A stretch of 21,318 nt of DNA from positions 1 through 21,318 of IMG/VR virus record IMGVR_UViG_3300031707_000219, one strand, 5' to 3'. This document shows, piece after piece, positions 2,751-20,746 of the stretch (positions within the stretch are counted from its first letter, which is position 1; each line of letters starts with the position of its first letter). Both the position numbers and the translations under genes were made by a program. The notes below the pieces were generated by a model. It saw nothing but the letters and a program-made list of their open reading frames with translations, was not told the DNA's origin and searched no databases. This DNA is from a virus.

Positions 2751-4033
2751 TGCCTCGCATAAATAAACCATTTATAGAGACACCCTTTTCATTACCAGCT
2801 GGAACTACTGATATGGAAACCAGTAAATTCCCTAATCCGATTGAACGGTATAAGCACGAACCCGATGAAGCAGTTGAAGATGACCTTATATATGACCAGG
2901 TAAAGAACAAATTGTTCCTTGGTCTGAAAGTGTTTGGCGAGCAAGTTGCTTTTTACCGGCAGAAACAGTCCGGCGAGATGTGTTCCTGTGTTGACCCGAA
3001 CAGGCAGTCGGCAGTTAGTTCATGTCCGGTTTGTCATGGAACAAAATATGTCGGCGGATATGATTATATGGGAAAAGCACTTGTTCAGTTTCCGCAAGTG
3101 CCTAGAACGAAAATCATCAGCGAGTTGGGTCTAAAGTTGCAGGAAATAGCGACTCCCTGGACATTGAATTTTCCAATGCTCAAAGAAAGGGATTTTCTTA
3201 TAAGGCGTATGGCTATAGCGGTAAGCGGTCAATTAAGAGTTGTTGATGAGCCGGTTATAAGAGGCAATTACAGTTCTGATTCGGATATACTGCGGTATAT
3301 CAACGACATGACTGTGTATAAAATATCCAACATCAAAAATGCGGAACAGTCGGATTATTTTGAAGGCACAGATTTCATCTTGAATGGCGGAGAACTTGTC
3401 CTTCAAGAATCAGCAGCGGTACCAATAGCAGATACAAGGACTCTCCGATTATTGGGTAAAAAGCCACCAATCTTTCTTGGGACGGGAGTCCAGCCATTTG
3501 CGTTAAACGCCGGATTAATTGCTGGAATGAACGTAAAAGTCCAGAATGATTTGGCGTGGACTGGGTTAAAAGACATTGTATTGGTGGCTGGTGCCGGCGC
3601 AGATGCTGGATTCTTCGTTATTACGATAAGCCAGACCGGAATACACAACACAATTACTTATCCATTAGAATCATTTCTAACGACTATTGCAGGGGATAAA
3701 ATCATATGGCTGGCAAGCGGAAGCAAGCCTACGATTGGAGCGACTTATTATATTACTTATGAGTATATCCAGGCATTCACGCAGAGATATCAGATTAAGG
3801 CAGTATCTCCGGTTGCTCCGCAAGGCGCAGTAATTTTACAGAGTTTTGATATTGACCTTCTTGACTTTACGGCGCCGATATACAATGTCGGGTCGCCATT
3901 CGATAATGGGAATATGATAGATTTCAGAAATGGCGTAACCAAAGAAATGGTAAAGCAACTATACGGTCAGTTTGCTGTTGCTCCAGGGAACACGGACAAC
4001 AAAAAATTCAATCAAGAAGCTGGGTATTACTAA
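2750..4033 (+). CDS. Probable neck/virion structural protein with a four-cysteine cluster
   Basis: 427 residues from the ATG at 2750, which overlaps the endonuclease stop (TAATG). C78, C80, C92 and C95 form a CxC-x11-CxxC cluster followed by HGTKYVGGYD, a likely zinc ribbon-like site seen in structural proteins of some large myoviruses. Residues 169-212 and 315-339 resemble the start and end of the beta-domain that also occurs in the sheath and two baseplate proteins here; about 100 residues separate them. The C-terminus contains FTAPIYNVGSPFDNGNMIDFRNG. It ends in a TAATG overlap with the next gene. Position before the sheath suggests a neck or tail-terminator-proximal protein; this is inferred from order rather than from a recognised family. 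Confidence 0.75.
   Translation: MPRINKPFIETPFSLPAGTTDMETSKFPNPIERYKHEPDEAVEDDLIYDQVKNKLFLGLKVFGEQVAFYRQKQSGEMCSCVDPNRQSAVSSCPVCHGTKYVGGYDYMGKALVQFPQVPRTKIISELGLKLQEIATPWTLNFPMLKERDFLIRRMAIAVSGQLRVVDEPVIRGNYSSDSDILRYINDMTVYKISNIKNAEQSDYFEGTDFILNGGELVLQESAAVPIADTRTLRLLGKKPPIFLGTGVQPFALNAGLIAGMNVKVQNDLAWTGLKDIVLVAGAGADAGFFVITISQTGIHNTITYPLESFLTTIAGDKIIWLASGSKPTIGATYYITYEYIQAFTQRYQIKAVSPVAPQGAVILQSFDIDLLDFTAPIYNVGSPFDNGNMIDFRNGVTKEMVKQLYGQFAVAPGNTDNKKFNQEAGYY
3254..3385 (+). other. Shared beta-domain, N-terminal half (neck protein)
   Basis: Residues 169-212 of the neck protein: VIRGN, then SDSDIL, VYKI, and SDYFEGTDFIL. These align with the first half of the domain copies in the gpJ-like and gpI-like proteins (RGxT, TSD, VxRVG, DYTxxxDYxI). 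The matching second half is found only at 3692-3766. Confidence 0.5.
3692..3766 (+). other. Shared beta-domain, C-terminal half (neck protein)
   Basis: Residues 315-339 read GDKIIWLASGSKPTIGATYY then ITYEY. This matches the I-x-W ... G-x-x-YY-[IV]-T-Y ending of the other copies. Bases 3737-3750 (GGAGCGACTTATTA) are identical to 5197-5210 in the sheath gene. Confidence 0.65.
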
Positions 4034-4872
4034 TGCCTTCTAGATTTCTTTTGACTTATGCGGTTACAAATATTCTTTGTAATGAAATCCGTGACGGATT
4101 TAACAAGGATAAAGAATTATATTATACCGACAACAATATTCAAAACAGAATAAATATACCGCAGGTCCTTGACAGCTGGAATTATAAGATACGAGAATAT
4201 CCCAGCATTATAGTGAATGCAGTTCCCGGGCAAAACCGTCGCATGGGAATAGGAGATGCCGCAGCAATTCCATACTTTGGGGTCTCGGGTACAGAAGATA
4301 AAAATGTCAGTTCGGCTATATATAGAAAATTCGTCATTAGTAACATTGTCCCTGTTGATACTGAAATAACCGTGAAATATAATGGCGACCCTGCGACTGA
4401 CCCATATGAATGGGTTGTTAAGGTCAAAGAAGTTCCTTCGAGTAATCCGCCGGTAAGATACATTGAACTTACCGGAACCAACATAGGACCATATGGAATA
4501 TTTCCGGCAAGCAATTTTAGTTTTATCAGCAAGACGCCGACTGCAGAACAATATGGCGGATTCTTTGATTTCAGGACGGAATTATTTGTTATAACGTTAT
4601 CTCCGGTGGAAAGAGAGATTGTTCTTGACAAGTTATGGGCAATGCTCTGGTTTTCTAAAAAACGAGAGATAATGGTCAAAGGGGTAATTATTCTTGACGT
4701 ATCGTATAGTGGAACATCCCAGCAGGATTTTGGTGCTGATAAATTATATATCGGCAAGATGACGGTAAGTTGTGCAACGGAATTCAGGCAGCTTGTTTAT
4801 TATCTTGATACCGTTGAAGGTATAACAGTTCAGGCGGAAGCGGTTCTGCCTGAAGAAATGATTCAATCGTAG
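4033..4872 (+). CDS. Probable tail completion/terminator protein
   Basis: A 279-residue protein whose ATG overlaps the previous stop (TAATG). It has an N-terminal helical part (LTYAVTNILCNEIRDGF), a central beta-rich part (ISNIVPVDTEITVKYNG; VRYIELTGTNIG), and a C-terminal part with FFDFRTELFVITLSPVEREI and LDKLWAMLWFSKKREIM. It sits directly before the sheath gene, where T4 gp15-type or other tail terminator proteins are commonly found, and the motif of a beta sheet plus a helix binding the last sheath ring would fit. I recognise no diagnostic family motif. It ends in tandem in-frame stops (TAG TAA). Confidence 0.65.
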   Translation: MPSRFLLTYAVTNILCNEIRDGFNKDKELYYTDNNIQNRINIPQVLDSWNYKIREYPSIIVNAVPGQNRRMGIGDAAAIPYFGVSGTEDKNVSSAIYRKFVISNIVPVDTEITVKYNGDPATDPYEWVVKVKEVPSSNPPVRYIELTGTNIGPYGIFPASNFSFISKTPTAEQYGGFFDFRTELFVITLSPVEREIVLDKLWAMLWFSKKREIMVKGVIILDVSYSGTSQQDFGADKLYIGKMTVSCATEFRQLVYYLDTVEGITVQAEAVLPEEMIQS

Positions 4873-4899
4873 TAAAAAAGAATAAGGAGGTAAGGAAAA

Positions 4900-6273
4900 A
4901 TGCCCAGACCACGTGTTACGAGTCAGTTTGTAAGAACGCCTGCAGCAAGCCCAGTTGCAGTCGGTACCAGAGTAATGGCGATTATAGGTCCTGGAAGCGA
5001 CAGTTTTACTATCCAGGAAGCAGTTGTGAAAGGTTCTCCCGGCGGACAGGATACGCTGGCACATATTGCTGCTGCAATTGTCAAAGTGGGTGATTACAAA
5101 GGGACACAGAACTATGTAGCCACGATAGATTATCTTTTAACTGATGGCAAGATAGACTGGTCGCCAAGCGGCGTTGGAGCCAAGGAACCGACAACGGGAG
5201 CGACTTATTACGTGACCTACACTTACGAAAAGGACGAAGAAACTGATTACGTTCCGTATCTCACGGATAATTTTGATGAAGTGGCGACGAAAGAAGGTGC
5301 GATTAATGTTACTAGCGGAGTTTTAGATGTTGCATCTTATTTGTCGGAAGCGGCACAGATTGCTTTTAATATCGGAGTAAGACAGGTGATTATTTGTCCT
5401 GTTGTGACCAATGATGAGGCTGGATATACAGCTGCTTTTACTAAACTGGAAAATCCGGTAAATTCAGTAAATCCTTACTACATCGTTCCATTGCTTGGTT
5501 CGTTGGCGATAGACGAATTTGACGCTGTAAAAGCGTTAGCACTTGCACATTGTCATAAAATGGCAAGCGAGGAATTCGGCAAGGAACGCATGCTTTATAC
5601 CGGCAAAAAGAATTATGGCGGTTCAGGTTCGGAGATTGGAGCGGATGATTTCATAAATGAAGCGACAGCTTTGCTTGACAGCAGAGAAGTTCTCTGTGGA
5701 AACTATGACCCAATCCGTGTCATTAGCGGCGAGAACGTTGTTCTTGACGGTTGTTTCCAGGCGGTCAGCCTGGCAGCGTTCAGATGCACGCAGTTCATCT
5801 CGGACCCGATGATGAACAGACCCATCGTAGGCGGATTCATCGGATTCAATACGAGATGGGGAGACATTGACGTTGACAATCTCGTTGACGGCGGAGTCTG
5901 CGTTTCCGAAGAACTTTCCAGCATAATCAAGGTCGTTGACGATATCACCACGAATACAAGCGACGAAATTGAAGTTGATATCAATACCGTCGAAGCAAGG
6001 GATATCCTCATCATGACTTTGAGGAATCAGATTGAAAAGAAATTCAAAGGCGCCAGAGGAACAAACTCGGTAAGTTCTGAATTGAAGGCATATACCGAAG
6101 ATTGTCTGGACCAGAGAGTTGGCGATGGAACAATAGCAGGAAAAGGTTCTGTATCTGCAAACAGGCAATCGGGCAGCCTGCGTAAATGGGAAATAGCATT
6201 CACGTATCTTCCAGTAACCAAGGTCAGGGATATAAATATAAAGTTCAGTGTGGATATAGGGCTAGCAGCCTAG
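4900..6273 (+). CDS. Contractile tail sheath protein
   Basis: 457 residues behind a very strong AAGGAGGTAAGG ribosome binding site, as expected for a major virion protein. The N-terminal domain includes VGTRVMAIIGPG and a beta-domain (residues 55-110) shared with other virion proteins. The middle has VRQVIICPV and SLAAFRCTQFISDPMMNRPIV. The C-terminal half carries typical sheath features: the FNTRWGDIDVDNLVDGGVCV segment, VVDDITTNT, EARDILIMTLRNQIEKKFKG, and the final VTKVRDINIKFSVDI strand. In contractile tails the C-terminal domain forms the inner layer that packs on the tube, and sheath contraction drives the tube into the cell. Base composition rises to about 53% GC at 5761-5940, well above the neighbours. 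It is followed by TAG TAA. Confidence 0.93.
   Translation: MPRPRVTSQFVRTPAASPVAVGTRVMAIIGPGSDSFTIQEAVVKGSPGGQDTLAHIAAAIVKVGDYKGTQNYVATIDYLLTDGKIDWSPSGVGAKEPTTGATYYVTYTYEKDEETDYVPYLTDNFDEVATKEGAINVTSGVLDVASYLSEAAQIAFNIGVRQVIICPVVTNDEAGYTAAFTKLENPVNSVNPYYIVPLLGSLAIDEFDAVKALALAHCHKMASEEFGKERMLYTGKKNYGGSGSEIGADDFINEATALLDSREVLCGNYDPIRVISGENVVLDGCFQAVSLAAFRCTQFISDPMMNRPIVGGFIGFNTRWGDIDVDNLVDGGVCVSEELSSIIKVVDDITTNTSDEIEVDINTVEARDILIMTLRNQIEKKFKGARGTNSVSSELKAYTEDCLDQRVGDGTIAGKGSVSANRQSGSLRKWEIAFTYLPVTKVRDINIKFSVDIGLAA
5062..5229 (+). other. Shared beta-domain (sheath copy)
   Basis: Residues 55-110 of the sheath: NYVATIDYLL, GKIDWSPSG, EPTTGATYYVTYTY. It is the compact complete form of the module also found in gpJ-like and gpI-like proteins and, split, in the neck protein. 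Preceding residues VVKG...DTL extend the similarity to the N-terminal side. Confidence 0.7.
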
Positions 6274-6304
6274 TAAAAATTAAAAAAAAGGATGGTGAAG
6301 AAAA

Positions 6305-6937
6305 ATGCCAGATATCACGGGAGCAAAACCAGTTAATAATGCGGTCATATCTACCAACATTAAAATCAAGATTGGTAGCTGGATTATCGGGTATATTCGC
6401 AATATAACCGAGACACAGGCAAGACCGGCGAATCCGCAGTATGAGGTGGGGACAGTTGGTCCGATAGACATAGTTCCGGCACAGCCAGCGGCTGTAACTC
6501 TTGCTTGCACAAAAATAGCGATATATGGTGGCAATCTCATCAATATTATCGCTAATGCATTGAAAAGTAATGACCTTGCGTCCATTACAGCGGCACCCGG
6601 ACTAACTCTTGCAGAAACACAAGCAGCATTGAAATACTGGCTTGGTCAGAAACAAGCAACGGGCGGCGCAGACGGAAACATGGCAACAGTATTTTCTCTT
6701 GCCGATATTCCTGTCGGTTTTGAAATTGAATGCGACGAGATATTTCCTGCCGGAACAACGCCTGGTTCGGAAATAATGATATCCAAGTATATCAACTGCT
6801 GGGTGGTTAGATATACCAGACCAATAGTTGCCAGTGGAGATTTGCTTGTAGCGGAGACTGCGGATATTAACGCACAGTATGTGAAATATACGCAGGGCAG
6901 ACAGATTGCAAGCGGAAGCGTTGAAGTAGTAACATAG
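6305..6937 (+). CDS. Tail tube protein
   Basis: 210 residues immediately downstream of the sheath gene, the usual tube position. Key features are an N-terminal strand NIKIKIGSWIIGYI, then YEVGTVGPIDIVPAQPAAVTLACTKIAIYG, a pattern typical of myovirus tube proteins (a loop of GT/DIVPG type followed by a strand leading to the oligomerising helix), and a C-terminal beta region ending in GRQIASGSVEVV. It is preceded by GGATGGTGAAG and followed by TAG TAA, the same tandem stop as the two upstream genes. The protein forms the rigid inner tube through which DNA passes. The size is in the normal range for T4 gp19-like and related tubes. Confidence 0.82.
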   Translation: MPDITGAKPVNNAVISTNIKIKIGSWIIGYIRNITETQARPANPQYEVGTVGPIDIVPAQPAAVTLACTKIAIYGGNLINIIANALKSNDLASITAAPGLTLAETQAALKYWLGQKQATGGADGNMATVFSLADIPVGFEIECDEIFPAGTTPGSEIMISKYINCWVVRYTRPIVASGDLLVAETADINAQYVKYTQGRQIASGSVEVVT

Positions 6938-6976
6938 TAAAGGAATTCAAAAACAAATTCAAAGGAGATAAACATC

Positions 6977-7381
6977 ATGGCTAATCCAATTGAGGAACTA
7001 GTTTTTTTTAACAAGTTATCGGAAGAAATCGTTGTCTTCGGGAAAAAGATTAAGTGGCATACCCTTGACGGTGACGAATTCTTAGGTGCTTTACAGTCAA
7101 CCCCTGCCTTCGATGATTACACACGTCTTAATCTATTAAAAGTTGAAAAACTTGCCCGTGCTATTGATTCCGTTGACGGTCATACCTGGCTGGAACTTAT
7201 TCCGCAGGACAAGAGAGATGAGATGAAGCCGGTTGAAAAAGCACGTGAGACAATCCGCAAATGGCAGAGGAACGTCATTGATTATTTCTATTTCAAGTAT
7301 GAACAGTTAGAACAAAAAGCGAATAAGGCTTTAGAGGAACTTGATAAAGGAAATTTTCAGCAGCCGCATACCTCCGGTTAA
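6977..7381 (+). CDS. Tail assembly chaperone, short (zero-frame) product
   Basis: 134 residues, between tube and tape measure, the conserved location of the G/GT-type chaperone pair. It has a strong AAAGGAGAT ribosome binding site. The body is helical and charged (LLKVEKLARAIDSVDGHTWLEL; EKARETIRKWQRNVIDYFYFKYEQLE). A slippery heptamer at 7351-7357 near the 3' end is followed by a stem-loop; a -1 slip there adds 132 residues from the next frame, giving a 259-residue fusion. The short form is expected to be the abundant product and the fused form the minor one. Both are thought to coat the tape measure and recruit tube subunits; neither is usually present in the mature virion. Confidence 0.85.
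   Translation: MANPIEELVFFNKLSEEIVVFGKKIKWHTLDGDEFLGALQSTPAFDDYTRLNLLKVEKLARAIDSVDGHTWLELIPQDKRDEMKPVEKARETIRKWQRNVIDYFYFKYEQLEQKANKALEELDKGNFQQPHTSG
7351..7357 (+). promoter_or_regulatory. Programmed -1 ribosomal frameshift slippery site
   Basis: The bases AAATTTT read A AAT TTT in the zero frame, an exact X XXY YYZ heptamer. Slipping back one base re-pairs the two tRNAs on AAA TTT and continues into the frame ending at 7755. That frame is closed by TGA TAA at 7342-7347, so the slip must occur after 7347 and before the zero-frame stop at 7379; the heptamer falls inside this short interval. Confidence 0.9.
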
Positions 7382-7398
7382 GGTGGAAGGTATTGCGG
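7364..7398 (+). promoter_or_regulatory. Frameshift-stimulating stem-loop
   Basis: CCGCATACCT (7364-7373) pairs with AGGTA-T-TGCGG (7388-7398), giving ten base pairs with one bulged T at 7393. The spacer from the slippery site is six bases (7358-7363), in the usual five-to-nine range. The 14-base loop contains the zero-frame stop TAA (7379-7381). The stem also buries the only candidate TTG start for the second frame. Confidence 0.85.
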
Positions 7399-7755
7399 GC
7401 TTTGGGAAAAACACCGAATGACCCGTTGATACAGTCGATGTCAAAGACACAATGGCGAGTGTGCATAAATAATGTTCTTGAAGATGAAAAAGAAACGAAT
7501 GAAAAAATCAAGACTATTATAGATATTGCCATTAAGATATTTGTGGGAAGTCCAGAAAAAGATAAACCGAAGACTCCTACAAGGGAAGGATATGTGGGTC
7601 AGGAACCGAATAAAGAAAATCCAGATGTTTCTTATACTGTACATGGGACACATGGAGAACAGATAGAAATTCATAAGATAATGTCAACGGAGTTCGATAA
7701 AATTGTAGCATCAGGCGGAAAATACAAGGGATTTGAAGTTGAGGAGAATAAATAA
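7393..7755 (+). CDS. Tail assembly chaperone, -1 frame extension
   Basis: This frame encodes the C-terminal part of the frameshifted chaperone. It is open from 7348; after a slip at 7357 translation would enter as SAAAYLRLRWKVLRALGKTP and run 132 residues to the TAA at 7753. The TTG at 7393 is a possible independent start with AGGTGGAAGG just upstream, but both it and part of that sequence are in the stem-loop, so independent initiation is less likely. The region has a helical start (SKTQWRVCINNVLEDEKE) and a polar, probably flexible middle (KDKPKTPTREGY). The stop overlaps the tape measure start (TAATG). By analogy with lambda gpGT, the extension would bind the tape measure or recruit the tube. 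Confidence 0.8.
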   Translation: MRALGKTPNDPLIQSMSKTQWRVCINNVLEDEKETNEKIKTIIDIAIKIFVGSPEKDKPKTPTREGYVGQEPNKENPDVSYTVHGTHGEQIEIHKIMSTEFDKIVASGGKYKGFEVEENK

Positions 7756-9650
7756 TGCCACCGGAGATTAGCGGGTCAGATATAAAAGAAAAAATGGAAT
7801 CGATGCGTGACTATGTACAGACGCTGAACGAGATGGCTATGGCTCAACAGGCAGGATATAGTTCATTAGGTCTTATGCTGGAAACAATGCATAAAGCACA
7901 TTATTCTTTTTCCGAATTCATGCAGATACTTGAAAAAACCAATGTAGTAGTATATACGACGGCAAGAATGATAAATGAACTGGGTCAGAATATAAAAGGG
8001 GCAACAACCAGCGTTGAAGGGTTAATATCCGCTTTCGGAATGCTGGGTGGCAAGGTGATGCCTGAATTAGTCCATCATATAGGAATGTCAATCAAAAACA
8101 GCCAGCTGAATATAGATGCAATGAAAAATGAAGCAAAAATCCTTCAAGAAAACATAGTTCATCGGACAAAATCAATTAGTATGGGCGACCAAGAAAGTTC
8201 AATAGTAAAGGATTTAATTGCTGTAAGAAGTCGTGAACAGGAAAAATTAAAGGAATTAAAAACAGATATAGAAGAGGCTTCTTCGGCTATGAGCAAATTT
8301 AGCGAAACCATGACCAAGTTTTTAGGTCCGGCAACACTGGTTATTACAGCTGCAATAGCTGTAGCACAGGCATATGATGCTTCCATAAAGGCAAAGAGAG
8401 AGGTTATATATACTCTTGGTAGAACGGGAATAAGTTATTCTCAAAATACCGAGGCAATGAATAGATTTAATGCTGAATTTACCACTATTGCAAATAGATG
8501 GGGTATGTTAAGAGAGGAAATGGCAAAAGCTGTTGCTCCATTGGCTGCGCTGGGAGTTGGCGGCGCAGGCACAGTTAAAGAAGCAGCGGAGTTAGCCGGA
8601 GGAATGTTCAGAGGATTTGGAATAGGAATGGACATCACAGTTAAATCTTTGGGTACACTCGCTACAGCATTTGATTTAAAGGGTAAAGCCTTGGGAGATA
8701 TATTTCTTGAAATAGCAGGACATGGACAAAAAAGCGCCCTTGATATGCAACGATACATCACGGAAATGACGTCTGCTATAGAAACAACCCGTCGTTACGG
8801 TGGTTCAGTAGAAAGTGCGATGATAATGATGGATTCGTTTTCAGAAGAAATCAGAAGAGGCACTATTACAATGGAAAATATTACACGTCTTACTACACCA
8901 GCGATGTGGTCTTTGCCTCAACAAGGGGCAGTTGCAGCGATGATGGGTAGATTTGCCCCGGAAGAAGCAAGAAAATTGGGAATTACCGGAAGAAGTCTAA
9001 CGGATGATATACTTGCTTTGGAACGGGCAGCGGGAGACAAAAATAAATCCGATGAACTTGCCAGAGGGATGGATAAACTGATAACTGGATTATCGGCAGG
9101 TGGTACAGAAGGAGACAAGGCTGTTAAGGCTCAATTAATATTACAACAATTAACAGGAGTCCAGGTTCCATTACTTGATGCCGTAAAAACCCTCACGGAC
9201 CCTGAAAAACTCAAGAAAGCTATGGCACCGCCCATAACTATAGCAGACATGAAAGATACTTTTGATTTAACAAAAACATATGCCGAAAGAACAGCTTCAG
9301 CAATAGAATGGATAAGAAATCAACTGGAAGGTAGATGGGGAAAACAATTAACCAGAGAACAATTGGCAGAAACTGTTCGAGGAAGAGAACAAATAACAAG
9401 TGAAATGATGACAAAGGGAATGGATACTAACGTTGGAATAATACCGACTGGTATTGGTGAATATTCAAAATATATGAAAGGTTTGAAATCAATAGGCGGA
9501 ACGTCAACTGTTGTCAATGTTGGAGATACTCATATTCATATTGATGGTGCTGATATACATGCCAGTTTAAGCAAGGCTATGGATAGACATAAAGAAGAAA
9601 CTTTGGCAGAAGTTAAAAGACAATACGACGAATTTCAGGTTATTCACTAG
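7755..9650 (+). CDS. Tail tape measure protein
   Basis: 631 residues directly after the chaperone pair, mostly alpha-helical with heptad-like charged stretches (for example ILQENIVHR, EQEKLKELKTDIEEASSAMS), a hydrophobic segment at about 188-206 (FLGPATLVITAAIAVAQAY) and a Gly/Ala-rich region around 262-290. The C-terminus has VVNVGDTHIHIDGADIHASL followed by a charged helix, a common tape-measure ending. The protein sets tail length and is ejected with the DNA. At the usual 0.15 nm per residue it would specify a tail of roughly 95 nm, modest for a myovirus. I see no peptidase or lysozyme domain in it. Its ATG overlaps the previous stop. Confidence 0.9.
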   Translation: MPPEISGSDIKEKMESMRDYVQTLNEMAMAQQAGYSSLGLMLETMHKAHYSFSEFMQILEKTNVVVYTTARMINELGQNIKGATTSVEGLISAFGMLGGKVMPELVHHIGMSIKNSQLNIDAMKNEAKILQENIVHRTKSISMGDQESSIVKDLIAVRSREQEKLKELKTDIEEASSAMSKFSETMTKFLGPATLVITAAIAVAQAYDASIKAKREVIYTLGRTGISYSQNTEAMNRFNAEFTTIANRWGMLREEMAKAVAPLAALGVGGAGTVKEAAELAGGMFRGFGIGMDITVKSLGTLATAFDLKGKALGDIFLEIAGHGQKSALDMQRYITEMTSAIETTRRYGGSVESAMIMMDSFSEEIRRGTITMENITRLTTPAMWSLPQQGAVAAMMGRFAPEEARKLGITGRSLTDDILALERAAGDKNKSDELARGMDKLITGLSAGGTEGDKAVKAQLILQQLTGVQVPLLDAVKTLTDPEKLKKAMAPPITIADMKDTFDLTKTYAERTASAIEWIRNQLEGRWGKQLTREQLAETVRGREQITSEMMTKGMDTNVGIIPTGIGEYSKYMKGLKSIGGTSTVVNVGDTHIHIDGADIHASLSKAMDRHKEETLAEVKRQYDEFQVIH

Positions 9651-9658
9651 GGGATTTT

Positions 9659-10354
9659 ATGGCTGATTTACTTGCAGGCGTAAAAACCAAGATGTCATTC
9701 ACTGACCTTGTTCCTTCCATTGATTGGAGAGTGAAAGGAATTTCTGATAAGACAACGGCGCTATATAATTTCTTGAATCCCAGTTCACTTGATACTACCG
9801 CACAAAAAGTCTATGATATTTTTGAATCAATAGATTTTGTTGTTACAATGATAAAGAATCCTGTGATTTCTCTGTTTATCAATCCCCAGAGCATTACAGT
9901 CAGTAAAAATATTTTATTAAGCAAACAGATAACGAAAGGCGGATTCGTTGTCCAATTCTGGGGTCCTGACCTTGAAACCATACAAGTCAAAGCGGAAACA
10001 GGATATTTCGGATTGAGTAATGTTCCTTTGCAGGCGTTTAATCTGTTCAAAGATTATTGCTTTCAGGGACGATATAGTCCACGGAAACCTTTTAAATCAA
10101 TACCAATAATAACTATGCTGTATGAAGGGCAGGCATTACGAGGATATTTCAATGGTCTTACATATAATGTTGTCCAGCAAAGACCATACATTATAACCTA
10201 CGATTTTACGTTTACCGTGGTTGAATTGATTAGTGTTCCCATTGTAACTTCAATAGCGAAACTTGCCGATAAATTTGCGAAACCGGTCAATACCGGAGAT
10301 GACCTGAAAGATTATACCAATTTTTCAAAAGGTTGGGGAGTGAAACTTTACTAA
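9659..10354 (+). CDS. Tape-measure-proximal baseplate/tail protein
   Basis: 231 residues, preceded by AGGGGATTTT and eight bases after the tape measure. The centre has INPQSITVSKNILLSKQITK followed by GGFVVQFWGPDLETIQVKAETGYFG; this NPQ...GGF...WG...TG(Y/F)FG arrangement occurs in myovirus baseplate proteins encoded between the tape measure and the hub. The C-terminal part contains YFNGLTYNVVQQRPYIITYDFTF, a beta hairpin typical of tail-tube-like folds. It probably links the tube or the tape measure end to the hub. I do not see a LysM domain, so I leave the precise equivalence open. Confidence 0.72.
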   Translation: MADLLAGVKTKMSFTDLVPSIDWRVKGISDKTTALYNFLNPSSLDTTAQKVYDIFESIDFVVTMIKNPVISLFINPQSITVSKNILLSKQITKGGFVVQFWGPDLETIQVKAETGYFGLSNVPLQAFNLFKDYCFQGRYSPRKPFKSIPIITMLYEGQALRGYFNGLTYNVVQQRPYIITYDFTFTVVELISVPIVTSIAKLADKFAKPVNTGDDLKDYTNFSKGWGVKLY

Positions 10355-10355
10355 T

Positions 10356-12599
10356 ATGTATTATGTAGCTGAACATCATCCTGACTGCAGGGTATTCGTG
10401 AAAAGACTTGTCGTTCCAGAAATCGGAGTGGTTGCTAATGTTGACGCAGGCGAAACCCATATTTCCAACGATATATTAAAAAAGGCGTTTGCTAATTATA
10501 AACCGAATATATTTTTTAAGAATCTAATTGACTATTATAAACAGGGATTCAGTAATGGCGACGCCAATGATGTTTCCTTATTACAAAAAACTTTTGCGGC
10601 AGATACCGAGACAATAAAATCTCTGCAGGGAACAGACAAATATTATCTCGGTATAAAAATTGAAAGCGAAAAAAGGGCTTTAGCTACAGTAAGGGCGACT
10701 TATGAACCTTTATTGCTGGAAATAGCAGTTGGTGTATATTCAGCGCAGACCACAATTTTAAGAAATGGAGTTGGCAATGCATCCGTCACAATAAGATTGC
10801 CTCTAGGAGAAAATGGATTTTATGAAAATATACTTTATGCTTTGAAAGACAATGATATGTGGAATCTGGATGAACAATTTAAGGAACAAAGTTCCCAGTT
10901 CAAACAAGTGTCTCCAAGGGAATTGAATATTTTTAAGATAATAGGAAACCAGGTAGATAAGCGTGAATGTTCATTACTGCCACATGATATGATTCAAATA
11001 TGGTTTTCAAAAAGGTATTCGGATACAATAGCGAAAAAAGACACTATAAAAAATGTAATTGGAATTCCATGTTTCCCCCGTGATTATGTCTCTGGATTTA
11101 CAGGATTTATTAAGTCAACTAATGTAAGTTATACCGGCGGTCAAAGTCCGAGTTATACGGTTACAATAGACTGTGAAGATTCCGGGCATGCTTTAAGAAT
11201 ATCAAGAGTGAACCTGGACCCTTCCCTTGACCCAAGCTATCGGCTGGAAGAATTGGGAGTTTCTCCCTGGCAGACCATATTTTCAGCGGCGGATGTTCCG
11301 TTTAAGTCGCCTTCTGAATATATTCGTAGTTTGGTGGTAGGATATCCTGGTCATTGGGGTGGTGTATCCAATATAGAAGTTCAAGATGATGTAGAATTTG
11401 ACAACAGTACAGGTCAATATTCTTGGCAATCAACCAAGGATAAGGTAGAAAAAAATGATGCAAGAGATATATTTACACATAGAGGGGTATCTTTAATCAG
11501 AATGCCCTGGGAATTGGATAAAATAAAACTGAATTTATACGATGATTTGATTACAAAATGTTGGCGTCCTTATGTAATTACTTTTAAGAATGCGTTTAAG
11601 TTATGGGAGAGTGATTACAAGTATCGTTGGGACATATGCAAGGAAATATCAGATATAATGGAATTTGAATTTTATGCCGATAACTTCGGGGCAATAAATT
11701 ATCATCCGCCGTTCTATAATTGGAATCCGGCAAACGTGAAATATTTCATTGAGGACAGAGAGATTTTATCGGAAAGTCATAAGTTTGATGAAACCGGCGT
11801 GGTAACTTCGGTGGAAATAGTATCTCAACCTCAAATACTGCAGATGGAAAATATAGCAAAATTCTTATCGGCTTTTGCCCGGGCTCCTAATGATATTATT
11901 CAAAGATATGGTCTTAGATTCAGAACTAAAAATATACCTGCTTTATCCGGTACAGACATAGGAGTGCAACAGGGTCCCATGGCAGATATTACACGCAAAG
12001 CGAGAAATTTATATGCAAGAGCATGGATTAACCGTAGAAATTATGAACTGAAATCAGCGACTGTAGAGATTCCAGGGACACCTGAATTATATCTTTGTAA
12101 TACGGTAGCGTTTGTGGGTGATTTGAATGATGTAATAAAAAAACTGGCTTTATCCAATGTAACAGAAACTGTCTCTGATGCAACCAAGATGATATCACGA
12201 ATAGAATCTGGATTGACTCCGACTTATCACGGCGGTGATTTGATAGATAATTTGCCGGTTTATTATATTAGCGGAATAAGCCATAAATATACACAAGGTG
12301 GAAGTTTTACTACTACGCTGACTTTGACCCATGGTCGCCGATGGGGAAAACATTTTATGGTTGGATATTCATTTTCAGAGCAAGACCACGAAGAGTTAAT
12401 GGCGTTGATGAAAAAATATTTCGGACAGCCGGAAAATTCAATAAATCTGTTCAAGTTAGCGACAGTGGCTGGACCGGTAACAAGAAATGTTTTTCCTGTG
12501 AACGATGCTTTTTCTCTGCAAAATAGAATATCATCAGCAAAAATCAATACTCCATTAGATATTCCTGGAATAGAAACAGGAGTTAGTCATATAAAATGA
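10356..12599 (+). CDS. Baseplate hub protein (gp27/gpD-type)
   Basis: 747 residues starting two bases after the previous stop; the nearest ribosome binding site (GGGGAG) is about 15 bases upstream, so translation is probably coupled. Residues about 205-285 contain LLPHDMIQIWF and FTGFIKSTNVSY...YTVTIDCED, the first beta-barrel pattern of late-control-D/hub proteins. A second barrel-like region is at about 575-680 (ATVEIPGTPELYLCNTVAF, YYISGISHKYTQGGSFTTTLTL), again typical of hubs, where a trimer forms the adaptor between tube and spike. The N-terminus (about 1-200) is an additional region rich in beta strands. Its stop overlaps the spike gene start (ATGA). Confidence 0.82.
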   Translation: MYYVAEHHPDCRVFVKRLVVPEIGVVANVDAGETHISNDILKKAFANYKPNIFFKNLIDYYKQGFSNGDANDVSLLQKTFAADTETIKSLQGTDKYYLGIKIESEKRALATVRATYEPLLLEIAVGVYSAQTTILRNGVGNASVTIRLPLGENGFYENILYALKDNDMWNLDEQFKEQSSQFKQVSPRELNIFKIIGNQVDKRECSLLPHDMIQIWFSKRYSDTIAKKDTIKNVIGIPCFPRDYVSGFTGFIKSTNVSYTGGQSPSYTVTIDCEDSGHALRISRVNLDPSLDPSYRLEELGVSPWQTIFSAADVPFKSPSEYIRSLVVGYPGHWGGVSNIEVQDDVEFDNSTGQYSWQSTKDKVEKNDARDIFTHRGVSLIRMPWELDKIKLNLYDDLITKCWRPYVITFKNAFKLWESDYKYRWDICKEISDIMEFEFYADNFGAINYHPPFYNWNPANVKYFIEDREILSESHKFDETGVVTSVEIVSQPQILQMENIAKFLSAFARAPNDIIQRYGLRFRTKNIPALSGTDIGVQQGPMADITRKARNLYARAWINRRNYELKSATVEIPGTPELYLCNTVAFVGDLNDVIKKLALSNVTETVSDATKMISRIESGLTPTYHGGDLIDNLPVYYISGISHKYTQGGSFTTTLTLTHGRRWGKHFMVGYSFSEQDHEELMALMKKYFGQPENSINLFKLATVAGPVTRNVFPVNDAFSLQNRISSAKINTPLDIPGIETGVSHIK

Positions 12600-13573
12600 A
12601 AAATATATTTTCAAATATTGGCGATAAAGATAATCTTGAACTATACAAAGGTTTAAGATTGGCAACTATTATTAACGTAGATGAAGATAAGGCAGTGGTT
12701 TCACTGCAATGGCTTGACAAATCCGGTGGACGCCGCCAAGTGCCATTATCAATGCCATTCTGCGAGCAGGGCTGGGGAATTTATGCGATGCCAAGAAAAT
12801 ATGGCATTGTAGTATGTCTTACAAGACCATATGAGTTTCCTGTTATCATTGCTTATATTCCTCCAAACTTTATGGGGTTGGATTCGTCATGGAAACAGTT
12901 TAAACAACAATCCAATATGCCGCAGGATTTTAAAAGCGGAGAAATTATTCTGCGGAATATGATACCAAAGGCAAAATGCAGGGTATGCAAGGTAGTATCC
13001 ACATTTGCTGACTGGGCGGCAAATTACGGATATGTAAGCGGTACGCTTTATCCGACGTTAAATGGATTGAAAGTGGAAAAGTGTCCTTCGTGTAATGTTC
13101 CTGCGTTTATCCTTGACGCCAATAAAATTGACATAAAAACCGTGAATAAGATACAGATGGGTATTCTCATATACATGAAACAAGATGGAAAGATGCGGAT
13201 AAAACTCAATGACGGACTCGATGCAAGTGATGGTTTTACCAAAGGCAGCATAGTAGATATTTTGTTTGACGAGAATAGCAATTTGACTGTTACCGGAATA
13301 CAAAATCTTAATATATCGTCTGACAATACTACGATAAATGCTGGAGGAAATAATAGCATTGTTTTAGATAAGGATGGAAATATTACAGCTATTGTCGCAT
13401 CGGGTAAAAAAATAAATCTTGGCAAAAATAACGCCAGTGAACCGGGTGTATTGGGTAATCAAATTAAACAATGGCTGGAAACCCATACCCATCCGACAGG
13501 CGTAGGACCAAGCGGACCACCATCTCAACCAGTGCCAAATAGTGCATTTTCTCAAAAGGTAGCTTTAGAATAA
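12596..13573 (+). CDS. Baseplate spike protein (gpV/gp5-type) with CxxC pair and HTH tip
   Basis: 325 residues. The N-terminal part (about 17-90) resembles the OB fold of gpV/gp5 spikes (YKGLRLATIINVDEDKAVVSL, GIYAMPRKYGIVVCL). Residues 128-131 (CRVC) and 163-166 (CPSC) form a CxxC-x31-CxxC pair, a probable zinc-ribbon insertion that standard spikes lack. Residues about 225-280 give short repeating strands (NLTVTGIQNLNISSDNTTIN, SIVLDKDGNIT) consistent with the triple-stranded beta-helix. The C-terminus contains H297-T-H299-P followed by a Gly/Pro-rich stretch; HxH motifs bind iron at the tip of P2 and phi92 spikes. It starts inside the hub stop and ends in a TAATG overlap. Confidence 0.83.
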   Translation: MKNIFSNIGDKDNLELYKGLRLATIINVDEDKAVVSLQWLDKSGGRRQVPLSMPFCEQGWGIYAMPRKYGIVVCLTRPYEFPVIIAYIPPNFMGLDSSWKQFKQQSNMPQDFKSGEIILRNMIPKAKCRVCKVVSTFADWAANYGYVSGTLYPTLNGLKVEKCPSCNVPAFILDANKIDIKTVNKIQMGILIYMKQDGKMRIKLNDGLDASDGFTKGSIVDILFDENSNLTVTGIQNLNISSDNTTINAGGNNSIVLDKDGNITAIVASGKKINLGKNNASEPGVLGNQIKQWLETHTHPTGVGPSGPPSQPVPNSAFSQKVALE

Positions 13574-14064
13574 TGGTATTAGACCCGAATAAGTTAAAAA
13601 CGAATATAAAGAATTTATTGACTGAAAAAGCGGAAACATATGAAGATGCGGCACAGAACTGGGTTGATGCTTACGTAGATTATGCAGGAGATGCGAAAGG
13701 ATTCATATATAGCCCGACAATACCAGATAGTGCTAAAATTGCCATGAAAGATACTCTTAAAACTTATTTTGAAAATGTAGATGCCGGAACAGCGGCTTTA
13801 GCAGCATTGGCAATGGCAAATGCTTTGACATTGTTTTGGTTGACACCGCCAATTGTGTTTTCTGTTGTTCCTCCGGTAGCAGTTAATCCGCTTACTCCGC
13901 CTGCAACGTCAGTATTGATTTCTGCACTTACGGCTATATTCATGGTGATAGGAGGAACGGAAGATTCAAAGGCACAGCAAATATCGTCAGCAATTGATAC
14001 ATTTACAAAAACGGTATGGGTTATAAATACGACGCCACCAGGAACAACGGCAATGCTTATATGA
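13573..14064 (+). CDS. Conserved-looking phage structural protein of unknown function
   Basis: 163 residues, coupled to the spike gene by TAATG. The N-terminus has AAQNWVDAYVDYAGDAKGF, followed by an Ala-rich helix, LTLFWLTPPIVF with a Pro-rich turn, a hydrophobic stretch around 113-126, and DTFTKTVWVINTTPPGT at the end. I have seen this Trp-Asp-Tyr plus FW-x-PP layout in proteins of other myovirus baseplate regions but cannot give it a defined function. The two hydrophobic stretches are short and Pro-interrupted, so I do not call it a membrane protein. Its stop overlaps a 12-codon ATG frame (14061-14099) that begins with a repeated sequence. Confidence 0.7.
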   Translation: MVLDPNKLKTNIKNLLTEKAETYEDAAQNWVDAYVDYAGDAKGFIYSPTIPDSAKIAMKDTLKTYFENVDAGTAALAALAMANALTLFWLTPPIVFSVVPPVAVNPLTPPATSVLISALTAIFMVIGGTEDSKAQQISSAIDTFTKTVWVINTTPPGTTAMLI

Positions 14065-14073
14065 AACTAATAA
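14061..14073 (+). repeat. Direct repeat copy 1 flanking the lipoprotein gene
   Basis: ATGAAACTAATAA occurs here and again at 14519-14531. Both copies overlap the TGA stop of the preceding gene, and the pair brackets the spanin-like lipoprotein gene. A 13-base match can arise by chance in a window this size; the matching placement at two gene junctions is what makes it notable. Confidence 0.6.
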
Positions 14074-14111
14074 GTGATACGGTGAAGACAGAGAATTAAG
14101 GAGAAGAAACA

Positions 14112-14522
14112 ATGAAACGTCTTATGTTAATATTATTGCCTATTGTATTATTTGCAGGTTGTAAACTTGGCGATAGCGGTAGCGGTTCATTTATAAATGC
14201 CACTAATGCCGGAGCGGATATTTATATCAGCAGTAATTCTGTTAAAGGTTTAGAAGGCAACAATCTGAATGTGAAGATTTTGGAAAGATACAATAATCCC
14301 TTTATAGTAGTTGAAGAAGCTATCGGAATGAAATCATATCCAGATGCCGAATACTCAAAGACAGTCAAAAAATATAGCGGAAATGAACTGACAAGCGTAT
14401 CCATAGAAATTGTCCATCCGGTGGCAAAGAGTAAACCAAACAATGTGCCTTATAAGCTCTTGGCAGCAGTTCTTGTGTTTGGCATTCTATGTAACGTGCT
14501 AATTAAGATACTAAAAAAATGA
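14112..14522 (+). CDS. Lipoprotein with C-terminal membrane span, candidate unimolecular spanin
   Basis: 136 residues with an AAGGAGAAGAAACA ribosome binding site. The N-terminus MKRLMLILLPIVLFAGC is a signal peptide with a lipobox-like LFAGC (Cys17 would be lipidated; Phe at -3 is less usual). After a Gly/Ser-rich linker come a beta-containing domain (about 35-102) and a C-terminal transmembrane segment at about 115-132 ending in KILKK. An outer-membrane lipid anchor plus an inner-membrane span is the architecture of u-spanins such as T1 gp11 (about 131 residues), which fuse the two membranes in the last step of lysis. Alternatives are a superinfection-exclusion or lysogenic-conversion lipoprotein. 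Placing it among baseplate genes is unusual. It overlaps the next small gene by ATGA. Confidence 0.75.
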   Translation: MKRLMLILLPIVLFAGCKLGDSGSGSFINATNAGADIYISSNSVKGLEGNNLNVKILERYNNPFIVVEEAIGMKSYPDAEYSKTVKKYSGNELTSVSIEIVHPVAKSKPNNVPYKLLAAVLVFGILCNVLIKILKK

Positions 14523-14531
14523 AACTAATAA
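14519..14531 (+). repeat. Direct repeat copy 2 flanking the lipoprotein gene
   Basis: Second copy of ATGAAACTAATAA. It forms the first codons (MKLI) of the 40-residue membrane peptide, overlapping the lipoprotein stop. Confidence 0.6.
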
Positions 14532-14641
14532 CTGTTGTGCTTATTTTATGGCTTTCAATTTTGACGTTTGTTATAGTCAAAGATAAATATGACATGAAAC
14601 ATCAGGAGGTCGCAAATGTCGTACGACCTGCAATTAGATAA
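14519..14641 (+). CDS. 40-residue membrane peptide coupled to the lipoprotein gene
   Basis: ATG at 14519 overlaps the lipoprotein stop (ATGA) and reads 40 codons to TAA at 14639. Residues 2-20 (KLITVVLILWLSILTFVIV) form one clear transmembrane segment, followed by a charged tail (KDKYDMKHQE) and a short C-terminus. The last 26 bases overlap the start of the gp25-like gene in another frame, and the AGGAGGT ribosome binding site of that gene lies within this frame. No independent Shine-Dalgarno is present, so expression would depend on re-initiation after the lipoprotein. It may be a lysis accessory or a partner of the lipoprotein; there is no family evidence. Confidence 0.5.
   Translation: MKLITVVLILWLSILTFVIVKDKYDMKHQEVANVVRPAIR
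14604..14610 (+). promoter_or_regulatory. Strong ribosome binding site for the gp25-like gene
   Basis: AGGAGGT with five bases to the ATG at 14616. It defines the wedge protein start even though the 40-residue peptide frame runs through it to 14641. Confidence 0.8.
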
Positions 14642-15032
14642 CGGTGATGTAGTCGTTGATTTACAGGGAGATGTTATTGTTCTTGAAGGATATGATAAGT
14701 TAAATCAAGACCTTCAACGGTTAATGGTTACGTCTCATGGAGACAATAAATTTGACGTCAACGAAGGTTGTGGTGTGATAGATTTGCTTGGCAAGGCATT
14801 GCCAAGGGACCTTGCAGAAATGATACTTAATAAGGATATATATATGGGATTAAAGCATATGATTGACCAACAGAACGCACAATCGTTGATACAGGTCTTA
14901 TCGGCTTATGAACAGATAGCGACAATTGATGCCATTGTTCTCAAACAAATATCTCTTAAAGCAATAGAATTTGATATTGTGTTGACCACAGCAAGAGGAT
15001 TAGAAAAAGCGTTTGCTGTTAGCGTAAAATAA
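14616..15032 (+). CDS. Baseplate wedge protein, gp25/gpW-like
   Basis: 138 residues, normal size for the family. The N-terminus DLQLDNGDVVVDLQGDVIVLEGYDKLNQDLQRLM is the characteristic pattern (split here as DLQLDNGD, GDVIVLEG, LNQDLQRLM), followed by a DNKFDVNEGCGV loop, a helix and a C-terminal beta strand pair (IDAIVLKQIS, IEFDIVLTT). gp25-like proteins fold like a lysozyme relative without catalysis and initiate sheath polymerisation at the baseplate. Encoded directly before the gpJ-like gene, as in P2 (W then J) and many other contractile systems. The base pairing AGGAGGT upstream is strong. Confidence 0.9.
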   Translation: MSYDLQLDNGDVVVDLQGDVIVLEGYDKLNQDLQRLMVTSHGDNKFDVNEGCGVIDLLGKALPRDLAEMILNKDIYMGLKHMIDQQNAQSLIQVLSAYEQIATIDAIVLKQISLKAIEFDIVLTTARGLEKAFAVSVK

Positions 15033-15044
15033 AAGGAGTATACT

Positions 15045-16676
15045 ATGCAGATAACGTCAGTAATTAACCAAATAACTCAAAGGATAATAAGAGGAAATAC
15101 TGCCGGAACAAGCGACCAGTTGCTTTATACTCCGATAGAAGTTGTTCGTGTCGGTATTAAAGCAAACACAAGCGATTATACTGTAACAATAGATTACAGG
15201 ATAGTGGGGTCAACTATCAGTTGGTCTCCTGCCGGAGCCGAACCTTCTCCCGGTCAAGCATACTATATCACTTATAAGTATAATCCTACCCAATATTTTA
15301 AAGATTTTGATACAATTTCTCAGGAACTTCAATCTGATTATAATACGGTTTTACCTAACCTTGATGTATCCAAATCGGCGGCACGAGACCTTTATATTAA
15401 TGTTCCTTCCAGGCAACTCGTTGATGAATATAATACGGCAAGGCATATTTCGCTCATCCAGATGCTGCAAAATGTCAGTGAATTATCAGATGCTGAATTG
15501 GATGCAATCGGTGTAAATTACAGCAAGCCAAGGCTTCCTGCCACAAAATCATCTGGTACAGCCAAGTTTTATATGAACATAGCCAGAGGATATTCTGTAA
15601 CCATTCCAGTAGGGACAAAAATAGCCACGATGCCTACTCTGACAAATAACCAGCAAATTACATTTTCTACCACGGAAGCAGTGACAATTCTTGCCAGCCA
15701 GTTATATGTTCTTGTGCCGATAGAAGCTGATAATGCCGGATTGCTTGGCAATGTCAGTGCAAACACTATTGTAATATTGATTGATACGCTTGATGTAGAC
15801 GGTGTAACAAATATTGTTGCTACAACAGGCGGTCAGGACCAGGAAACTAACGATGATTATGCCAAGCGGCTCATAGATGTTTTTAAGGCAAGGAATATTG
15901 CCACTGTAAATGGAATAAGAGGTCTCGTGCTGGCACAGCCGAATGTGATTGATGCTTACATAGCCGATGTCGGAGATTCTGTTATGGTTCGTGATGGTGG
16001 ATTAGGCGGTAAAGTAGATATATACATTCAGTCTGAATCGGGTTTTGAGGGTGAAGTTATCAATGAAGAATATGTTTATGCCGGCGATTACGTGTTCCTT
16101 AAACAGCCTGTAATCAGTATTGTATCAGTGGAAATAAGCGAAGGAAGCGGTCCTTACGTGACGGTACCGTCTGACGAATACGAGTTGGTGAAAGATACCG
16201 GATTATTCCAAAACTCAACACGTGCATTGGATAAGTTGCGGTTTGTTTATCCCGATATTCCGACTCCCGGCGACCTTATAAAAATCAGTTATGTATATAA
16301 CAAGTTGTTTAATGATATACAGGATTTGCTTGACAGCGATGCGTATCATCGTGCCGGCATAGATGATTTGGTCCGTGGCGCCCTTGAAACGTTTATTGAC
16401 GTAACCGGAGCCATTAAAATAGCGTCTGGGTATGTGTTTGCTGACGTTCAAACCAGCATAATCAATAGCATTACCGATTACATCGAAGCCAAAGAAATAG
16501 GCTCACTCATTGTGTATGGAGACATTATCAATATCATACACGATACGCCGGGTGTGGCAGATTTGATGCCATTGAGCAGGTTATGCAGAAGCACTGAATA
16601 TCTGGTTAATACGATACAATTGCGTGGAAACGAATATCCTCGTGCTGGAACAATTACAATAAACAGAATTGTATAG
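15045..16676 (+). CDS. Baseplate wedge protein, gpJ/gp6-like
   Basis: 543 residues with AAAAGGAGT upstream. The Baseplate_J core is clear: KSSGTAKFYMNIARGYSVTI followed by PVGTKIAT, TFSTTEAVTI, VPIEADNAGLLGNVSANTI, VVATTGGQDQETNDDYAKRL-type segment (here ATTGGQDQETNDDYAKRL), a helix and VIDAYIADVGDSVMVRDGG. A copy of the shared beta-domain lies in the N-terminus (residues 31-80), and a longer C-terminal domain (about 330-543) includes DYVFLKQPVISIVSVEISEG and the helical DLVRGALETFIDVTGAI. The protein forms the inter-wedge ring that controls baseplate opening. It stops at TAG, and the next gene follows in the same frame after GAG TAG AAA. Confidence 0.92.
   Translation: MQITSVINQITQRIIRGNTAGTSDQLLYTPIEVVRVGIKANTSDYTVTIDYRIVGSTISWSPAGAEPSPGQAYYITYKYNPTQYFKDFDTISQELQSDYNTVLPNLDVSKSAARDLYINVPSRQLVDEYNTARHISLIQMLQNVSELSDAELDAIGVNYSKPRLPATKSSGTAKFYMNIARGYSVTIPVGTKIATMPTLTNNQQITFSTTEAVTILASQLYVLVPIEADNAGLLGNVSANTIVILIDTLDVDGVTNIVATTGGQDQETNDDYAKRLIDVFKARNIATVNGIRGLVLAQPNVIDAYIADVGDSVMVRDGGLGGKVDIYIQSESGFEGEVINEEYVYAGDYVFLKQPVISIVSVEISEGSGPYVTVPSDEYELVKDTGLFQNSTRALDKLRFVYPDIPTPGDLIKISYVYNKLFNDIQDLLDSDAYHRAGIDDLVRGALETFIDVTGAIKIASGYVFADVQTSIINSITDYIEAKEIGSLIVYGDIINIIHDTPGVADLMPLSRLCRSTEYLVNTIQLRGNEYPRAGTITINRIV
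15135..15284 (+). other. Shared beta-domain (gpJ-like copy)
   Basis: Residues 31-80 of the gpJ-like protein: VVRVG, TSDYTVTIDYRI, STISWSPAG, EPSPGQAYYITYKY. Preceding RGNTAGTSDQL extends the match to the gpI-like copy (RGDTSDDVL) and to the neck copy (RGNYSSDSDIL). Confidence 0.75.
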
Positions 16677-16685
16677 GAGTAGAAA

Positions 16686-16967
16686 ATGCTTCTTAAATTC
16701 GCTACTTTTGAAGAACGGACAAACAAATTTTTTAATGCGATGTTGACAGACCTGAATCCGAAGATATACGCTTTAAGCACGGATAGGTTTGTGTTCCTGG
16801 ATAAACAACTATTATTAACAGGCAACACGGGGGTTCCGAATGTTCACGTTCAGGTTTATATAAACGGCGTATTAAACGCTGAAACAGATGCTTTGGGTGA
16901 TGGAAGTTTTTCTTTATATGTTACACCGGTAAGAGATGAAAATAATATAGTCGTAAGATTTGCATAA
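16686..16967 (+). CDS. Small Ig-like virion protein
   Basis: 93 residues with AGGAG eight bases upstream, in the same frame as the preceding gene. The N-terminus (about 1-28) is a Phe-rich helical segment (ATFEERTNKFFNAML), and the rest is one small Ig/carboxypeptidase-regulatory-like beta-sandwich: LTGNTGVPNVHVQVYINGVL, TDALGDGSFSLYVTPV, NNIVVRFA at the end. The G-x-F-S-L and NNIVV strands are the typical last two strands, so the domain looks complete rather than truncated. Placed between the gpJ-like and gpI-like genes, it may be a baseplate accessory or a connector to fibres. No exact family recognised. Confidence 0.75.
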   Translation: MLLKFATFEERTNKFFNAMLTDLNPKIYALSTDRFVFLDKQLLLTGNTGVPNVHVQVYINGVLNAETDALGDGSFSLYVTPVRDENNIVVRFA

Positions 16968-16991
16968 AAGATTGAGGATTGCGAGGATATT

Positions 16992-17981
16992 ATGGGAGAA
17001 TTCATTCCTACAAAATTAACTGCATCTAATCTCTTGGCGATGCTATTTGTTTACTCAAAACAGTTACAGTTATTGGACGAAGAACTTACCCGTGTGAAAA
17101 ATGACCAGAATATAATGACCTGCAGGGATGAATTTATAGAAAGCATATGGGGAGTCAAATTAGGGCAGGTATTTACTTCTGATTTTAATATTACTCAATA
17201 CAGGAACCTTCTCATAGCACTTGTCAAAGTTGCATTGCAGGATTCTACGAATCAGAACATCATTGATACCGTTCATGCTTATTTTCCAACAGCCGAAGTG
17301 GATATAGTGGAATATTGGAAAAGACCGGAAGACATGGTGGGTTATGACTGGCAGAATACGTCGTTCAAATTCATGGGAGCTGGAGGGCTGCTGGCAACAG
17401 AAGAAGTGGTCAGAGGAGATACATCTGATGATGTACTTAAAGGCAGAGTATATAGCATTACACGTGTAGGGTTAACTCCTACTTCAACCGATTATACCGA
17501 AGGTGTTGATTATGAAATACCTGCTAATCCCAATGATTATTTTATACATTGGCTTGGGAGCGGAGGAGACGAACCTGACGAAGGACAGACGTATTACGTT
17601 ACTTATACATGTTATGAGATACTGGGCAATGTCTGGAATGGCAACCATCCCTGGATACCTGACCTTGGCGTACTTGGGTTTTTCCTTTTTGGCGTCCAGA
17701 TATATTTAAGAGGAATCAATGCTGATGAATTAGGACAGGTTGAACAATACGTGATTCCAGCGTTACAGAGATTCGTAAAACCAGCTGGAATATATTACGA
17801 GATAATTATAACGGATATAGAGATGTTAGTAGCATATAAATTAAAAGACGAAAGCACGAGAATGATTCCATTAACTGATAGTATTTTAGGATTTGGCATG
17901 CAGCCATTTGGAAGTCCGGTTTCTGTGGGACCAAGCGACTTCGGATTCGGGTCCCCGAGTTTACCTGAATATGTCTTGTAA
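16992..17981 (+). CDS. Tail protein I-like baseplate wedge protein
   Basis: 329 residues with GAGGATATT upstream. The N-terminal half fits gpI-type proteins that follow gpJ: a helix pair (LLAMLFVYSKQLQLLDEELT), CRDEFIESIWGVKLG, then TQYRNLLIALVKVALQDST and NQNIIDTVHAYFPTAEVDI. A copy of the shared beta-domain is inserted at about residues 134-208. After it come the strongly aromatic GNVWNGNHPWIPDLG and a beta/helix region (GFFLFGVQIYLRGINADEL, YEIIITDIEMLVAYKL), and a Gly/Pro-rich tail GFGMQPFGSPVSVGPSDFGF. Such proteins connect the wedge to tail fibres. Compared with P2 gpI (176 residues) it is nearly twice as long, partly because of the inserted domain. Confidence 0.78.
   Translation: MGEFIPTKLTASNLLAMLFVYSKQLQLLDEELTRVKNDQNIMTCRDEFIESIWGVKLGQVFTSDFNITQYRNLLIALVKVALQDSTNQNIIDTVHAYFPTAEVDIVEYWKRPEDMVGYDWQNTSFKFMGAGGLLATEEVVRGDTSDDVLKGRVYSITRVGLTPTSTDYTEGVDYEIPANPNDYFIHWLGSGGDEPDEGQTYYVTYTCYEILGNVWNGNHPWIPDLGVLGFFLFGVQIYLRGINADELGQVEQYVIPALQRFVKPAGIYYEIIITDIEMLVAYKLKDESTRMIPLTDSILGFGMQPFGSPVSVGPSDFGFGSPSLPEYVL
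17391..17615 (+). other. Shared beta-domain (gpI-like copy)
   Basis: Residues about 134-208: VVRGDTSDDVL, VYSITRVG, STDYTEGVDYEI, FIHWLGSGG, EPDEGQTYYVTYTC. It is the copy closest in layout to that of the gpJ-like protein, with two extra residues before the I-x-W strand. Confidence 0.75.
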
Positions 17982-20733: not shown

Positions 20734-20746
20734 TAAAGGAGGTATC

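Follow-up and report, generated by a model that had tools for sequence, protein, structure and literature searches.

The window (the whole 21,318-base virus record that was analyzed) carries a contractile-tail module on the plus strand, in which an FN3-like adaptor candidate is followed by neck, terminator candidate, sheath, tube, tape measure, hub/spike region, gpW-like, gpJ, gpI and fibre genes, with several of these names being inferred from the gene order. The neck, terminator-like, sheath and baseplate genes, together with the beta-domain segments found within them, are laid out as follows:

2750..4033, plus strand: neck (stopper-like) protein, 427 aa; an N-terminal CxC...CxxC zinc-ribbon-like domain in common with phage G gp175, then a split beta-domain
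3242..3427, plus strand: neck beta-domain piece 1, the first ~50-59 of 75 profile positions (Pfam DUF4815; HMM; hhalign probability 95.8 to 96.7)
3428..3682, plus strand: insert of ~85 aa separating the neck pieces (alignment)
3683..3775, plus strand: neck beta-domain piece 2, with the I-x-W and YYITY strands (DUF4815 positions 319-365; hhalign probability 95.6 to 96.1)
4033-4872: terminator-like protein (candidate)
4900..6273, plus strand: tail sheath protein, 457 aa (PHROG tail sheath; PDB profile match; AF2 and Foldseek)
5008..5238, plus strand: sheath beta-domain, aa 37-113, within the N-terminal part of the sheath (DUF4815; PDB 9EUF residues 279-361; AF2 all-beta)
15045..16676, plus strand: gpJ-like baseplate wedge protein (Baseplate_J), 543 aa (Pfam PF04865, 3.6e-22; phrog_6)
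15069..15293, plus strand: gpJ beta-domain, aa 9-83, an N-terminal extension (DUF4815; the L041 gpJ homologue begins at the end of the domain)
16992..17981, plus strand: gpI-like baseplate protein, 329 aa (phrog_1160 baseplate protein, 1.8e-4; placed after gpJ)
17391..17621, plus strand: gpI beta-domain, aa 134-210, an insertion (DUF4815; cleanly missing from the gpI of L008 and L040 in the alignment)

The C-terminal core of the sheath matches the phage 812 sheath (5LI2) with an E-value of 1.7e-16 when an alignment profile is used, whereas the neck/stopper identity of the 2750..4033 product is inferred from the gene order adaptor, neck, terminator and sheath. No PDB relative was found for the terminator-like protein at 4033-4872.

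What the neck, the sheath, the gpJ-like wedge protein and the gpI-like protein have in common is a match to one stretch of ~75 residues of Pfam DUF4815 (PF16075; positions ~270-360), with E-values of 3.4e-8 for the neck, 1.8e-15 for the sheath, 2.7e-16 for gpJ and 3.6e-7 for gpI, the score of the latter (29.3 bits) lying slightly below the Pfam curated cut-off of 30 bits. The region matched is the same in all four carriers (profile positions about 268-365), which bears out the first-pass annotation both in its claim of one beta-domain of similar sequence in four virion proteins and in its linking of that domain to DUF4815-type proteins; the motifs it had given all translate as described, and the copies of the sheath and gpJ begin earlier than it had placed them (5008-5238 and 15069-15293, respectively). 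Within the window, phmmer relates the copies to one another at 1e-12 (sheath-gpJ), 1e-8 (gpJ-gpI) and 6e-6 (sheath-gpI), and the neck to gpJ at 8e-6 to 5e-5, to the sheath at 1.5e-4 and to gpI at 2-4e-3. Every pair of copies scores above all 1000 shuffles (z 7 to 21), a seed profile built from the sheath, gpJ and gpI copies recovers both neck pieces, and the profile comparison of the segments that had been suggested as a check reveals similarity extending over their full length and well beyond the YYxTY strand. None of the four carriers is a full-length DUF4815 protein covering the whole 570-position profile, as AcaML1 gp48 or Yersinia fHe-Yen8-01 are; only ~75-100 of the 570 positions are matched, and what the carriers hold is the segment at positions ~270-360. 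One domain family of the DUF4815 type is, then, present in four otherwise unrelated virion proteins and behaves as a removable add-on. An additional candidate copy inside gpJ (aa ~335-422) was rejected for want of a significant relationship (8.7% hhalign probability; z of 3 at most).

The sheath, gpJ and gpI copies are complete, and the neck copy is in two pieces, one aligning to the beginning of the profile and the other to its end, with the two overlapping in its central part. As similar splits occur in the sheath copy elsewhere (Rctr197k, Tunturi_5, L076, L077 and L062), the simpler reading of the neck seems to be one domain that is split, rather than two partial domains; hhalign detected no similarity of one neck piece to the other, which makes a tandem repeat less likely. 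In L077, L076, L050, L052 and L062, the sheath copy is split by large nested inserts, which, like the insert of the neck copy, lie near the I-x-W/YYxTY loop; the one in L062 is FN3-like by eye.

A solved relative of the domain is available, as the domain profile matches residues 281-357 of the Staphylococcus phage 812 DUF4815 protein (PDB 9EUF, E 3.3e-13), and the sheath alignment matches the 812 sheath (via the core) and, separately, a segment of the 812 DUF4815 protein (3e-14). Residues ~279-361 of that protein (PDB 9EUF/9EUI) are the same domain by sequence, although in phage 812 it is one part of a baseplate tail protein of >1000 aa, whereas here it is a stand-alone add-on without the rest of DUF4815; besides this DUF4815 protein, no sequence match to the domain was found in a Twortvirinae genome. 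Structure prediction, which the first-pass annotation had also proposed, covered the sheath and the neck and yielded a fold for the sheath only: the AF2 model of the sheath (mean pLDDT 67) has an all-beta domain (pLDDT ~63-85) and is matched by Foldseek to 9eui chain Q over 100 columns (E 3.1e-4, rmsd 6.5, about 36% identity), while the neck model, built from six sequences, has a mean pLDDT of 31. Given their sequence relationship to the sheath copy, the other copies are expected to fold in the same way. Ig-like sheath domains (PMC9230969) are likewise extra beta-domains inserted in the sheath beside a conserved core; the difference is that here one sequence family, predicted as all-beta in the sheath, is common to the sheath and three further proteins of the shell. 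Removability, as it is understood for Ig-like accessory virion domains, is seen for the gpI, gpJ and neck copies, each of them being present in some homologues and absent from others.

This was established on relatives drawn from viral contigs and annotated phages, which were classified by core profiles and the domain profile; no neck relatives were found among the genome contigs searched. In the sheath, a complete or partial domain occurs in most relatives sharing this core, and a copy was not clearly found in phage G; the 009502_314 sheath (L062) was considered as a case without the domain and rejected, as this contig starts inside the gene and the YYVTYTY strand is present. The neck copy is present in the window, G001, G003, G004, G005 and the contig of L047 (weakly in G003, G004 and L047), and was not detected in phage G, L048, L076, L077 and Tunturi_5. 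The gpJ copy is present in the window, G001, G002, G003, G004, G005 and the contig of L047, and absent from G006, G007, L041, L077, phage G and others, the gpJ of Rctr197k giving a weak internal match only; in G006 and G007, the sheath copy is present and the gpJ copy missing. Among the relatives classified, the gpI copy is confined to the window and G001, with the gpI of L008 and L040 reading through the insertion point without the domain (the gpJ of L008 is 64% identical to that of the window). As homologues without the domain exist, it is dispensable for the core function of the neck, gpJ and gpI. A search of records of 45 to 218 kb with the domain profile (A1) found the domain only in the sheath, neck, gpJ and (in G001) gpI, and did not detect it in the capsid, these negatives being bounded by the sensitivity of the profile and the incompleteness of the records. 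Beyond these, whole DUF4815 proteins contain it, as does a terminator-like protein of L078 (encoded at 9428-10318; matching phrog_20284, virion structural protein, at 2.8e-22), which bears it at the C-terminus and whose gene immediately precedes a sheath-like gene.

The reading that we tentatively prefer is that of a small all-beta accessory module of the DUF4815 type on the proteins of the sheath shell, which might brace the sheath together with the proteins at its ends. The domain would be located on the outside of the sheath and of the proteins flanking it at either end, where its lateral contacts would brace the sheath in its extended state and connect it to the neck and the baseplate, by analogy with the tail terminator of phage 812, the outer beta-sandwich of which binds and clamps the sheath (PMC12886913); the two are proposed to act alike, as beta add-ons on an end protein clamping the sheath, and homology between them is not claimed. 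Stabilisation of the tail has also been proposed, along with an aid to adhesion, for extra Ig-like sheath domains (PMC9230969). Bracing of this kind would provide a testable idea for how the sheath ends join the neck and the baseplate. At the baseplate end, it appears not to be obligatory, because G006 and G007 have the sheath copy without the gpJ copy, and the coupling of the neck and gpJ copies to that of the sheath is confounded with descent, because their co-occurrence, seen in a subset of relatives, rests on essentially one clade. It also counts against bracing that the solved relative from phage 812 belongs to a tail protein of the baseplate and not to the sheath.

We would nevertheless favour bracing over its main rival, adhesion, which seems unlikely, if still worth serious consideration, and by which an Ig-like surface module would bind host-surface glycans weakly, with the many copies along the tail raising avidity in adsorption. 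Such a role has been published as a proposal for added Ig-like sheath domains (PMC9230969), and it agrees with the additive, removable position of the domain in all carriers and with the solved relative being within a staphylococcal protein that some records annotate as adsorption-associated, but the domain was detected neither on the capsid nor in this phage's own fibre. A common interlocking element, which the first-pass annotation had suggested beside a surface decoration and by which the sheath subunits would contact one another via the domain, with the neck and wedge proteins extending the lattice and one type of interface running from neck to baseplate, is in our opinion quite unlikely. 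Less probable again is a neutral modular filler, i.e., an old domain moving among phage genes and kept without a specific role; the patchy presence in gpI, gpJ and the neck and the large nested inserts tolerated by the sheath copy in several lineages are what such a filler might show, yet 17 invariant columns are retained in A1, and the neck, sheath and gpJ copies have been kept together across lineages whose carriers are only ~34-41% identical.

As for the origin of the copies, the first-pass annotation had proposed copying within this tail module, and the four copies do lie inside one 14-kb stretch, with the neck and the sheath sharing 14 identical bases. This identity is real but uninformative, as the window has five independent exact repeats of at least 14 bases (versus 1.8 +/- 1.1 in second-order Markov simulations, with a maximum of 6 in 60). 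In topology tests, performed on 74 columns with weak tree support, a tree with a clade of this lineage's copies was rejected (p-AU 0.0085; 0.0084 without the neck), while grouping by carrier was not (p-AU 0.12). Sheath copies are 52-56% identical between phages, against 36% for the sheath and gpJ copies within one phage, identical residues share codons at the codon-usage expectation (e.g., 8 observed versus 11.9 expected for sheath-gpJ), and no residual identity between copies is left at silent codon positions. With the copies mostly grouping by carrier, recent copying is very improbable and is rejected for those of the sheath, gpJ and neck, a rejection that does not extend to gpI. Because the within-lineage clade is rejected and codon sharing is only at expectation, the neck, sheath and gpJ copies are old. 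Only the gpI copy looks lineage-specific: its grouping with the sheath copy of its own phage was rejected (p-AU 0.038), its grouping with this lineage's gpJ copies was as good as the best tree (in which the gpJ copies are not monophyletic), and it probably derives from a gpJ-type copy by a later gain, unless L008 has lost it. The sheath would, in this order of events, be the old home of the domain in this lineage, with copies arriving on the neck and gpJ early in the clade and a gpJ-type copy being inserted into gpI later. Convergent beta-sandwich motifs without common ancestry can hardly be entertained, for YYxTY-type end strands, which would be their main recommendation, are common in phage beta-domains, but the profile matches span the full length, well past that strand.

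Accessory beta-domains on phage virions are already well known; in the open papers searched, no description was found of one sequence family that is present on the sheath and on the proteins at both of its ends and is mostly inherited by carrier among widely divergent phages, and an unnamed DUF4815 segment with a solved structure is now linked to several other virion proteins.

Some further observations concern the neighbouring genes. Between the adaptor candidate and the neck lies a gene for a Vsr-like endonuclease (1908-2747; Pfam Vsr weak, E 0.038), which looks like an insertion, as the adaptor and neck genes of L043 (18650 and 18633) nearly adjoin, and which might possibly be a homing endonuclease; an HNH-like endonuclease candidate is seen by eye in L008 (3687-4451), between the gpW-like and gpJ genes. 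The adaptor candidate itself (1142-1903) has an N-terminal beta-domain that is weakly FN3-like (Pfam fn3, 0.024; phrog_1696, 6e-6), and the neck relatives of phage G and L076 have, by eye, an apparent N-terminal FN3-like part. Further along the tail module, a small protein (14112-14522) has a lipoprotein-type signal (ILLPIVLFAGC) and a C-terminal hydrophobic stretch. The N-terminus of the fibre protein (18760-20733), which is without the beta-domain, matches DUF4815 positions 3-60 (E 9.5e-5) and is followed by a weak beta-helix match, and an M15-type peptidase, probably an endolysin, is encoded at 20705-21316 (Pfam Peptidase_M15_4, 1.5e-11) and runs off the record.
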